This document shows, one piece after another, positions 112-48,419 of a stretch of DNA of 64,000 nt. A model generated the notes under the pieces. That model was given only the letters and a program-made list of their open reading frames with translations, did no database searches and was not told the DNA's origin. Location of the stretch: NCBI RefSeq assembly GCF_000374025.1, contig NZ_KB893178.1, forward strand, positions 62,001 through 126,000, written 5' to 3'. The position numbers were made by a program, and so were the translations under genes. The DNA is from Spirosoma panaciterrae DSM 21099. GTDB taxonomy: Bacteria > Bacteroidota > Bacteroidia > Cytophagales > Spirosomataceae. Numbering within the stretch: the stretch's first letter is position 1; every line of letters starts with the position of its first letter.

Positions 112-2523
112 CTACTCATTTTTTATGAGTACACGGATATCACTGCTTCGGCCTTTGTCATCAGCACAGGAAATTTTTAGGGTTCCGGGTTGGGGCTTGA
201 AAAAGATAGCTTCGGTTGGTTTGGCCCGGCGATACAGCTTATCGTTCAAATACCAGAAAACCGTTTGTACGTCATTGGCAGCCTGACAGCTTAATTCCAT
301 TTCAGCAGGTTGCTTAGGATTGATAAAATATTCGCTGCCCGGATTCAGGCTGGTAATTTGTGGAGCAGTCTGGTCTGTGTTGCCAAATACGCGTTCGCAG
401 GCAGGGTTATGCGGAGGAGCCATTTCGAACGGAATATGACGGCTTTGGTAGAAGGCTACGACCTCCGGCGTCAGATTCGGGTAGGATTTCCGAACAAAAC
501 CAGAGTCGGGCAGGCAGTGCGCACAGTAAGCGATTGTACCCGCAGCGTTCGTAAAAACAGCTTTCCGATGCTGGCAACGTCGATACCGCGAAACGCCCAT
601 AATGCAGTAGTCGGTTACGGGGTTCTGACAAAACTCGCCTGGAACATTGCCCGTTTCGGGGCAGATGAGCCGCGTCGATAAGCGGGTTTGTCCTTTAGGG
701 GCCTGAAACCAGCCCGTTGGGGAGTTATAGTCCAGTACGTTAAAAAGCTGAAATAATAAAGGGGTTGCCGTATTAGCCCCGCTCAGTTCGGCCACGCCCA
801 CGCCCGAAAAGTTACCCACCCATACGCCAATCGTATACCGTTGATTATACCCAATGCTCCAGGCATCGCGTCGGCCATATGATGTTCCCGTTTTCCAGGC
901 AATGCGGGGTAAGTGATAACTATTGTCGAAATTATTGGGCAAGTCGGGGCGGGTAATCTGCGTGAGCGTATGCGTGACGAGGTAGGTGGCTTCGGGCGAA
1001 AGAAGGTTTACCTCACCCCCAGCCCCTCTCCTGATTTTAGGAGAGGGGGGAGAGGGATCGCATACTTTCCTCCCCTCTCCTAAAATCAGGAGAGGGGTTG
1101 GGGGTGAGGTAAACCGCAGCGGCTCCCATTTTCCACCATTGGCCAGGCCGGTATACAGCCGGGTCATTTCTTCCAGCGTAACCCCACAGCCACCCAGAAT
1201 CATGGAAAGCCCCAGTTCATTTTTCTGCTTTTTGATGGCCGAGAAACCGGCTTTCTGGAGTGTGGATACAAGGGCTGGTGTGCCCATTTCTTTCAGAAGT
1301 GCCACCGCCGGAATATTCAGTGAGTTGGCCAGGGCAAATTCGGCCGTGACGGGGCCGTTGAATCGACGGTCGAAGTTGTCGGGTTGATAACCACCGAAGT
1401 TGGTAGGGACGTCGGCCAGTTTGCTCTTGGGTGTAATGATGCCTTCGTCGAACGCCAATCCATATAGCAACGGTTTCAACGCACTTCCCGGCGACCGTAC
1501 AGCCCGTACACCATCAACCTGCCCACCATCGAAGGTATTTGAAAAATCGGCTGATCCCACATAGGCGACCACCTCTCGGGTGTGGTTATCCACAACCAGT
1601 ACTGCCGAATTGTGTATATTATAGCTTCGAATGCGGTTGGCATACTGCCGCACTATTCGCTCAACCGTTGTTTGGGCCGTTGGGTTAAGGGTTGACCGGA
1701 TAATGGGCGTATTCGGATTTTCGATTCGAAGCCGTCGCGAGAGATGCGGAGCCTGCTGGGGTGCATCATGACGATAAACCTGCAAGGGTTCGCTCTGGGC
1801 ATCCCGGATAGTCGATTCGTCGAAAAGGCCAGCGTTTCGGAAGCGGGTGAGCCACCGATCCCGCTCCTGCCTGACGAGCGCATTGCGAACGCCCAGACGA
1901 AGGCTGGATGGTCGATTTGGAATGATGGTTAAGGTGGTAATTTCGGCCAGACTTAGCAGAGCGGGCGGTTTGCCGAAATAAAGCAGGGATGCCGATTTTA
2001 AGCCTTCGATGTTGCTGCCGTAAGGAATCAGGTTCAGATAGAGCTGGAGAATCTCATCTTTTGAGTAATGCAGTTCCAGTTGCAGTGCCCGGAATAGCTC
2101 CAGCAACTTGGCTCCATAGGTTCGCTGGCGGGGTTCGAGTAACCGGACGGTTTGCATCGTAATGGTCGATGCGCCTGAGGTTCGTCGGCCCGTCAGGATA
2201 TTATTGACCGTAGCCCGAATGAGGGCAACGGGATTGAATCCTGGATGGTATCGAAAATATTTATCTTCTTTGAACAGAATGGCTTCGCGCAGGGTGGGGG
2301 TAATTTCATTCAGTTCGGCATACAGACGCCACTTATCGTCGCGGCTCAGAAAAGCGTGTAAAATAGTGCCGTCACGGGCCTTAACGAGGGTTGAGTAGGG
2401 GACCGTAGATTGGATTGGAAATAAAAAATCAAGGGCAAAAAAAATCAATAGCCCCGCCAGAGCGGTTTTAGTCCAACGCGATTGCCAGAGTCGCTGTGCT
2501 ATGATTTTACCTTTTTGAGCCAC
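112..2523 (-). CDS. pbpC: Penicillin-binding protein 1C, bifunctional peptidoglycan synthase
   Basis: Inner-membrane enzyme that polymerises lipid II (GT51 transglycosylase) and cross-links peptide stems (transpeptidase). One membrane anchor lies at about residues 18-36. The GT51 domain follows with FKEDKYFRYHPGF, GASTITMQTVRLL and SKDEILQLYLNLIPYG. The transpeptidase has the SxxK serine in SPGSALKPLLYG, SLN and KTGTSYGRRDAW. A C-terminal domain after TAPQITSLNPGSEY resembles the BiPBP_C module typical of PBP1C. The predicted start is GTG. Length (803 aa) is usual for PbpC, but about residues 470-506, between the SxN and KTG motifs, are encoded by an in-frame palindromic repeat (1005-1115) and have no counterpart I recognise in the family. 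The alpha-2-macroglobulin gene that often neighbours pbpC is not visible here. Confidence 0.93.
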   Translation of the reverse strand: MAQKGKIIAQRLWQSRWTKTALAGLLIFFALDFLFPIQSTVPYSTLVKARDGTILHAFLSRDDKWRLYAELNEITPTLREAILFKEDKYFRYHPGFNPVALIRATVNNILTGRRTSGASTITMQTVRLLEPRQRTYGAKLLELFRALQLELHYSKDEILQLYLNLIPYGSNIEGLKSASLLYFGKPPALLSLAEITTLTIIPNRPSSLRLGVRNALVRQERDRWLTRFRNAGLFDESTIRDAQSEPLQVYRHDAPQQAPHLSRRLRIENPNTPIIRSTLNPTAQTTVERIVRQYANRIRSYNIHNSAVLVVDNHTREVVAYVGSADFSNTFDGGQVDGVRAVRSPGSALKPLLYGLAFDEGIITPKSKLADVPTNFGGYQPDNFDRRFNGPVTAEFALANSLNIPAVALLKEMGTPALVSTLQKAGFSAIKKQKNELGLSMILGGCGVTLEEMTRLYTGLANGGKWEPLRFTSPPTPLLILGEGRKVCDPSPPSPKIRRGAGGEVNLLSPEATYLVTHTLTQITRPDLPNNFDNSYHLPRIAWKTGTSYGRRDAWSIGYNQRYTIGVWVGNFSGVGVAELSGANTATPLLFQLFNVLDYNSPTGWFQAPKGQTRLSTRLICPETGNVPGEFCQNPVTDYCIMGVSRYRRCQHRKAVFTNAAGTIAYCAHCLPDSGFVRKSYPNLTPEVVAFYQSRHIPFEMAPPHNPACERVFGNTDQTAPQITSLNPGSEYFINPKQPAEMELSCQAANDVQTVFWYLNDKLYRRAKPTEAIFFKPQPGTLKISCADDKGRSSDIRVLIKNE
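1005..1115. repeat. REPIN-like inverted repeat inserted in frame in pbpC
   Basis: Bases 1005-1048 and 1072-1115 are inverted copies of each other over 44 bp with a single mismatch, separated by a 23-bp spacer. Each arm carries its own small hairpin (CTCTCCT/AGGAGAG around GATTTT), so the element is two REP-like units facing each other. Total length is 111 bp, exactly 37 codons, and pbpC stays open through it. Arms are C-rich on one strand (CCTCACCCCCAGCCCCTC). No second copy was found in this window. Confidence 0.85.
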
Positions 2524-47774: not shown

Positions 47775-48419
47775 ATGCATACGGATTTCTACTGGTACAA
47801 AGGTTTACCGCATTTGCAACCGCTTGGGGGTACATTCTTTGTTACCACGCGGCTTCAGGGGTCGCTGGCGCAAACTGAAAAAGAACGCCTGGCCAATACG
47901 TATGCAGCCAAAAAACAACAGATTCTTATCCGACCGGGCCATAGTCGGGACGAGTTGGATCGGCTGGAAAGAATGTATTTTGGCGAGTACGATCAGTTGA
48001 TGGATCGGGCCGATTATGGACCCCGATGGCTGGAAACGGATTCTATTGCCCAACTTGTCGCTCAGAGCTTACACTATTGGGATGATAAAGCCTATAATCT
48101 GATTGCCTATACATTGATGCCCAATCATATTCATGTTGCGTTTTCGTTCTTCGATCCTGAATCGGGCAGGCCAGCAATACCCTTGGTGAAAATCCTGCAA
48201 AGTATTAAAAGCTTCTCGGCACGGCAGTGTAATCAGTTGCTGGAAAGACAGGGACAATTCTGGGATGATAAAAATTATGACCGACTGGTACGCGACCGCG
48301 ACGAACTGTATCGCATTGTTCAGTATATTTTGCAGAATCCGGTAAAAGCTGGCTTTTGCCAACGCTGGCAGGACTGGAAATGGACGTACGTAAAACCTGA
48401 ATACAATGACTTTAGATAA
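47775..48419 (+). CDS. REP-associated tyrosine transposase (RAYT, Y1_Tnp/IS200-like)
   Basis: A 214-aa HUH single-strand transposase. The HUH motif is in YTLMPNHIHVAFSF, and the catalytic Tyr is expected in the C-terminal part, FWDDKNYDRLVRDRDELYRI (RAYT-like), followed by VQYILQNPVKAGFC. RAYTs cut and move palindromic REP sequences and are usually single-copy and non-self-mobile. No REP or terminal hairpin flanks it; only a small palindrome CGTAA/TTACG lies just upstream (47746-47759). Its last 14 bp overlap the start of the amidohydrolase gene, which argues against mobility as a unit. A REPIN-like element in pbpC is a candidate substrate. Confidence 0.88.
   Translation: MHTDFYWYKGLPHLQPLGGTFFVTTRLQGSLAQTEKERLANTYAAKKQQILIRPGHSRDELDRLERMYFGEYDQLMDRADYGPRWLETDSIAQLVAQSLHYWDDKAYNLIAYTLMPNHIHVAFSFFDPESGRPAIPLVKILQSIKSFSARQCNQLLERQGQFWDDKNYDRLVRDRDELYRIVQYILQNPVKAGFCQRWQDWKWTYVKPEYNDFR

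Follow-up and report, generated by a model that had tools for sequence, protein, structure and literature searches.

A palindromic element within pbpC

The window analysed here, a 64,000-nucleotide stretch of the Spirosoma panaciterrae DSM 21099 genome, carries near its start the gene for penicillin-binding protein 1C (pbpC; 112–2523, minus strand; 803 aa), an open frame identified by a single match to TIGR02073 (1.1e-219) that spans residues 38–800 and encodes the motifs SALK (347), SLN (401) and KTG (544). Between SLN and KTG lies a palindromic element of 111 bp, or 37 codons (1005–1115, no strand assigned), across which the minus-strand pbpC frame stays open, and which is read as residues 471–507 of the intact protein, in agreement with the original prediction of an in-frame position between the SxN and KTG motifs. 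An AlphaFold model of PbpC was poor as a whole (mean pLDDT 63, pTM 0.48), with residues 477–502 of low confidence.

The pbpC element is an arms-only copy, comprising two 44-nt arms 23 nt apart. The left arm (1005–1048, plus strand) carries, from the outside inwards, a tag CCTCACCCC (1011–1019), a 3-nt linker and a hairpin (1023–1048) in which CCCCTCTCCT and AGGAGAGGGG form a 10-bp stem around a 6-nt loop. The right arm (1072–1115, minus strand) is the left arm inverted and has the same organisation, with its hairpin at 1072–1097 and its tag at 1101–1109. The two are complementary at 43 of 44 positions (98%), so the earlier description of 44-bp arms with one mismatch, each with an internal hairpin, was accurate. 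The 23-bp spacer between them (1049–1071, no strand assigned) resembles by eye the pbpC spacer of genome G004, and the G000 and G004 pbpC spacers look homologous. Folded as single-stranded DNA, the element reached −56.7 kcal/mol, compared with −18.4 ± 2.7 kcal/mol for 200 dinucleotide shuffles (z = −14.2; 0/200 as low). The tag-plus-stem pattern, with up to three mismatches allowed, matched two sites in the window against 0.06 expected, both belonging to the pbpC element. Two of the six possible frames through the element are open, one on each strand.

PbpC was present in 33 of 39 genomes, S. panaciterrae included, and the corresponding loop was measured in 29 cases (22 from the genus and seven from outside it; the stretch at locus L048 begins too early). 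Perfect stems of at least 7 bp occurred in six of these loops, namely those of S. panaciterrae (L023), L024, L025, L026, L035 and L045b (genome G016). The remaining 23 held stems of 2–5 bp, among them all seven out-of-genus loops, which lack the element, so the segment is not a feature conserved in the PbpC of distant species. Palindrome-free loops within the genus (16/22) ranged from 12 to 96 nt, with stems of 5 bp at most. The S. panaciterrae loop measures 132 nt against 60–81 nt in the element-free relatives closest to it in sequence; the claim that the element adds exactly 37 codons therefore stands for its length, whereas the net gain to the protein is nearer 17–24 codons. In G016 (L045), whose loop is palindromic, the gene frame is disrupted immediately upstream of the palindrome. 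By eye, a tag-like remnant can be seen in the pbpC loops of G011 and G023, and the L035 palindrome looks like a different arm type. The pbpC copy probably derives from a single old insertion in a common ancestor of several Spirosoma species, and in some of these would since have decayed.

Smaller palindrome-like stretches (CCGACCCGTCGGACCG; GGCAGCGGCCGACCGTC) were noticed by eye within the tag or linker of some arms, in the pbpC loops L024 and L025, the 3′ flanks of L079 and L100 and the 5′ flank of L092, as though the arms were themselves targets of another, tiny element.

Dispersed copies and their residence in reading frames

Searched across the whole genome with up to three mismatches, the hairpin pattern gave 13 matches, compared with one for the reversed pattern, so that the repeat is by no means confined to a single occurrence. 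At 2 mismatches the reversed-pattern control is contaminated by a mirror symmetry between tag and stem (described below); with exact matching it returned zero in every genome. One genomic copy is a single arm lying in frame in an ABC transporter ATPase. At the same turn of this ATPase, genome G017 carries a complete double-arm unit, also in frame, and several relatives have a short turn. Exact arms in G017 numbered 46 of A-type and 27 of TC-type, and dispersed arms-only units 13 of A-type (mean core identity 0.78) and nine of TC-type (0.80), set in flanks of 0.23–0.29 identity. Units of the same kind are found at unrelated sites, with relatives that have no copy there, as expected of a mobile unit. 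No target-site duplication was visible by eye in the flanks of these 22 units, for which there was no sufficiently close empty site for comparison, and no exact insertion junction could be fixed for the arms-only units.

Of 42 sites read in G017, 16 (arms or units) were in frame, with ≥100 open codons on each side. All 16 open reading frames had Pfam matches; by our reading, in 13 a single match spanned the insert (weakly in one, L322), and in the other three the insert lay between domains of the same enzyme (leucyl-tRNA synthetase (LeuRS), an FAD oxidase and ClpB). The original prediction held translated elements in coding genes to be rare, which understates how common in-frame residence is in at least one relative, as these 16 cases show; whole nuclease genes with arms of this kind are also found in frame, as described below.

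Paired arms flank DUF559 genes

The S. panaciterrae genome has a single DUF559 gene (PF04480 profile match, 8e-28), with one of the 13 hairpin sites on either side; these two lie 426 bp apart and place the gene between inverted sister arms in an element of ~480 bp. Its arm is of a sister type (CCCCACCCC/CCCCTCCCC), unlike the pbpC type (CCTCACCCC/CCCCTCTCC). Profile matches of DUF559 alignment A1 included 3hrl (1.8e-29) and the mobile intron protein 3r3p (E 0.002), which we take to be I-Bth0305I. DUF559 was matched in 23 of 36 genus genomes, where by eye separate DUF559 groups bear separate arms, several of which are degenerate.

The flanks of 125 DUF559 loci in three sets (genus, phylum and bacteria in general) were compared (10 further loci were set aside). 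Mutually inverted flanks (score ≥20) occurred at 54 of them, against 1.8% of 2500 mismatched pairs and 0/2500 shuffles, with 16/25 in the genus set, 7/25 in the phylum set and 31/75 in the bacterial set; the other 71 fell below the threshold, the LeuRS copies L218 and L221 among them. Controls from the same contigs gave a similar picture: inverted flanks at 25 of 55 DUF559 genes against 0/220 pseudo-genes, and arm-class hairpins near 34/55 against 0/220. Scores of each flank set directly against its own partner (36% at ≥20) are an invalid control for hairpins that are themselves self-inverted. Loci with inverted flanks carried titles from Bacteroidota, Chloroflexota, Cyanobacteria, Elusimicrobia, Acidobacteria and Myxococcota (or older names of these). 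In the literature searched, which lay mostly outside subscription journals, no link between DUF559 and palindromes was found.

Arm class followed the DUF559 tree, with 21 changes over 82 loci compared with 41.8 when shuffled (0/200 as low), in a tree in which 40 of 79 inner branches are without resolution and near-copies boost the clustering; at least one pair of loci, L087 (G044) and L138 (Spirosoma luteum), at zero branch length from each other, is practically one gene counted twice. The signal was driven by classes TC, CCT and A, and the small classes TTC and TTCC were unclustered. Palindromes were also more numerous in genus genomes with DUF559 than in those without (23 vs 13 genomes; Mann–Whitney p = 0.0009), A-type counts were higher with an A-type DUF559 (p = 1e-5, or 0.0018 once flanking arms were subtracted) and TC counts where the DUF559 was of TC type (p = 0.004), in tests that ignore relatedness and with DUF559 types assigned by hand. 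Individual genomes depart from this correspondence: G045 lacks DUF559 and has 10 palindromes (≤2 mismatches), G042 combines 24 exact TC copies with a single, A-type DUF559, G017 has its 27 TC copies while the arms read at its DUF559 genes are A-type, and G023 has a TC-type DUF559 and no exact TC copies.

Several A-type DUF559 elements (L076, L089, L093–L095, L101 and L103) share by eye one intergenic site in several species, bordered presumably by DUF1553-like and DUF1501-like genes; given this common site, the A-type copy there was probably inherited.

Nuclease genes within host proteins

Whole DUF559 genes in open frames of at least 350 aa numbered 29 by hand count, among ~150 entries listed. 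Pfam placed DUF559 within LeuRS, HsdR, HsdM, MetH, methylmalonyl-CoA mutase and RecG, as well as within an Eco57I-type methylase protein and a UvrD-type helicase, ahead of an M23 peptidase domain, and terminally in a PurL-like GATase_5 protein and a coproporphyrinogen oxidase. In many of these hosts the arm sequences encode peptides rich in Pro, Gly and Ser. Pfam (E ≤ 1e-5) showed no intein splicing domain in any of 20 DUF559-containing host proteins. Intact frames, together with this absence of splicing domains, lead us to infer that the insert is translated and remains unspliced, and that the host proteins still work.

Some hosts recur. Three MetH proteins (L086, L238 and L244) share by eye a common site in the B12 domain; RecG is a host in two genomes (L368 and L369, by Pfam), and HsdR is one at L222 by Pfam and at L224, L367 and L371 by eye. 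At L376, DUF559 is N-terminal to coproporphyrinogen oxidase in one open frame, possibly a fusion or an upstream gene that lacks its stop.

The LeuRS loop offers a graded series. LeuRS was matched in 36 genus genomes and the loop was read at 30 loci, 25 of which have a plain stretch of 29 aa and three one of 34 aa. The loop extends to 37 aa in G014 (L332), including by eye a C-type arm, and to 58 aa in G017 (L330), with a double-arm unit. In three genomes of other families the same loop holds DUF559 together with its arms, in frame, at L363 and L364 (one genus) and L372 (another). One LeuRS loop thus spans empty, single-arm, double-arm and full DUF559 states. DUF559 also occupies another position in LeuRS, ahead of or within the editing domain, at L218, L221 and L365.

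Mirror symmetry of tag and stem

The outer tag mirrors the stem, with the same letters running backwards and A often replacing T. Counting A as T, mirror identity over 24 unique stems was 0.843, compared with 0.700 ± 0.020 when permuted (0/5000 as high), although these numbers overstate independence because the loci are related. Direct identity between tag and stem showed a weaker excess (0.652 vs 0.590 permuted; 1/5000), one complement relation was null, and the other showed a weak excess over 74 arms (47/5000) that was not significant over unique stems (335/5000). The mirror rule may reflect recognition of the element's end by way of a folded arm. A parallel-triplex reading of the symmetry was dropped, since at stem T positions the tag has 25 A versus 17 T over the 24 unique stems.

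Origin of the pbpC segment

Spirosoma genomes contain dispersed units of paired arms, and here and beyond the genus there are DUF559 genes between inverted arms, arms and genes resident in frame in host proteins, and shared insertion sites. We consider it likely that the pbpC segment represents a non-autonomous copy, reduced to the arms, of a DUF559-linked mobile element that inserts into proteins. In full form such an element would have a DUF559 (Vsr-like PD-(D/E)XK) endonuclease gene set between an outer tag with its hairpin arm and an inverted copy of that arm, and one open frame per strand, as in the pbpC copy, encoding a Pro/Gly/Ser-rich peptide. The DUF559 protein would recognise the hairpin arm with its tag, probably in single-stranded, folded form, and would cut or nick at the arm, moving both its own gene and arms-only copies, of which those landing in frame in loops would be retained.

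The most serious alternative makes DUF559 a passenger or homing nuclease: another enzyme would move the arms, and DUF559 would either home into arm pairs or be captured between them. The resemblance to the mobile-intron protein 3r3p lends itself to such a scenario, as do palindromes in genomes without DUF559, such as G045, and the placement, in one paper, of a DUF559 gene among the EDxHD homing endonucleases (PMC9403480). Set against these, arm class tracks the DUF559 tree and DUF559 of the same type accompanies arm counts, and we regard the passenger scenario as unlikely, though not negligibly so.

That the segment is a true REPIN, a pair of REP hairpins mobilised by a RAYT (Y1 tyrosine transposase), appears very improbable. 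The REPIN-like layout in the original prediction holds as architecture, in that two inverted hairpin arms with a short spacer are present, dispersed and in frame, and the genome does encode two Y1_Tnp genes; membership of the REPIN/RAYT system does not follow, and was rejected for this genome. REP hairpins are accompanied by a GTAG or GGAG tag. The tag is instead CCTCACCCC here and CCCCACCCC or similar elsewhere, neither of the two Y1_Tnp genes of S. panaciterrae is flanked by arms within 600 bp (best arm-pattern match ≥7 mismatches) nor are their flanks mutually inverted (scores 8 and 10), and the association seen is with DUF559. A Y1_Tnp (RAYT-type) gene, L054, lies within the window itself (48075–48332), with none of these arms nearby.

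Equally improbable is a coding palindrome of the Rickettsia kind, spread by recombination or replication slippage with no dedicated enzyme and only incidentally linked to DUF559. In-frame palindromes in unrelated Rickettsia genes give this a precedent (PMC10969869); the association of inverted flanks with DUF559, however, far exceeds that in same-contig controls, and DUF559 elements share the LeuRS loop with a double-arm copy. Least credible of all is a functional, selected part of PbpC that was never a mobile insertion, for although palindromic segments occupy this loop at 6/22 genus loci, the 16 other genus loops and 7/7 beyond the genus have stems of at most 5 bp, the DNA repeat recurs in unrelated genes, and the low-confidence residues 477–502 count slightly against it, a weak point in a model poor throughout.

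Comparison with known systems

With a DUF559-linked element as the favoured reading, its nearest known counterparts, by analogy, are Rickettsia palindromic elements (RPEs) in behaviour, REPIN/RAYT in architecture and, as regards a nuclease lodged within a protein, inteins and EDxHD homing endonucleases. To our knowledge, no related system combines all of these features, and we know of no enzyme for the palindromes inserted in Rickettsia coding genes. RPEs are described as ~150 bp long, with nearly half of them within ORFs of unrelated genes as translational fusions (PMC10969869). Palindromes lie in frame in unrelated genes here too, with translation suggested by open frames; in contrast to RPEs, compared by description, the present elements belong to another phylum, have a candidate enzyme gene with the same kind of arm, and include whole enzyme genes in frame.

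REPIN/RAYT systems likewise have dispersed units of two inverted hairpin arms and a nuclease-type gene bordered by its own type of arm, but the gene here is a DUF559 PD-(D/E)XK/Vsr-like one rather than a Y1 HUH transposase, and many copies sit inside coding genes. Inteins and EDxHD homing endonucleases, for which two papers give background on nucleases inside proteins (PMC9403480, PMC5718144), share a nuclease domain in frame in conserved enzymes at recurrent sites; they differ in that the present elements end in palindromic DNA arms, have scattered arms-only copies and show no splicing domain in the 20 hosts. Finally, Caulobacter VsrA is a Vsr-like DUF559 protein with endonuclease-type effects in vivo, reported to cause the SOS response of a methylase mutant and, unlike the present proposal, hypothesised to be a mismatch-repair-like enzyme (PMC12907096); the string 'palindrom' is absent from the main text of that paper.

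Implications

More broadly, we put at about even the chance that DUF559 genes and paired arms form a widespread mobile family that inserts in frame into loops of essential proteins, persisting as translated, unspliced domains, with arms-only miniatures as its non-autonomous members and with a new kind of end recognition by a tag that mirrors the stem. If so, a role would be found for DUF559, a common and poorly understood bacterial protein family, along with an enzyme candidate for palindromes that enter coding genes and a mobile element that resides in essential enzymes without splicing. Such a family would account for the nuclease or Pro/Gly-rich segments found in frame in LeuRS, MetH, RecG and restriction subunits, inserts of a sort that disturb annotation and alignments, and would offer a natural catalogue of enzyme sites that tolerate insertion.
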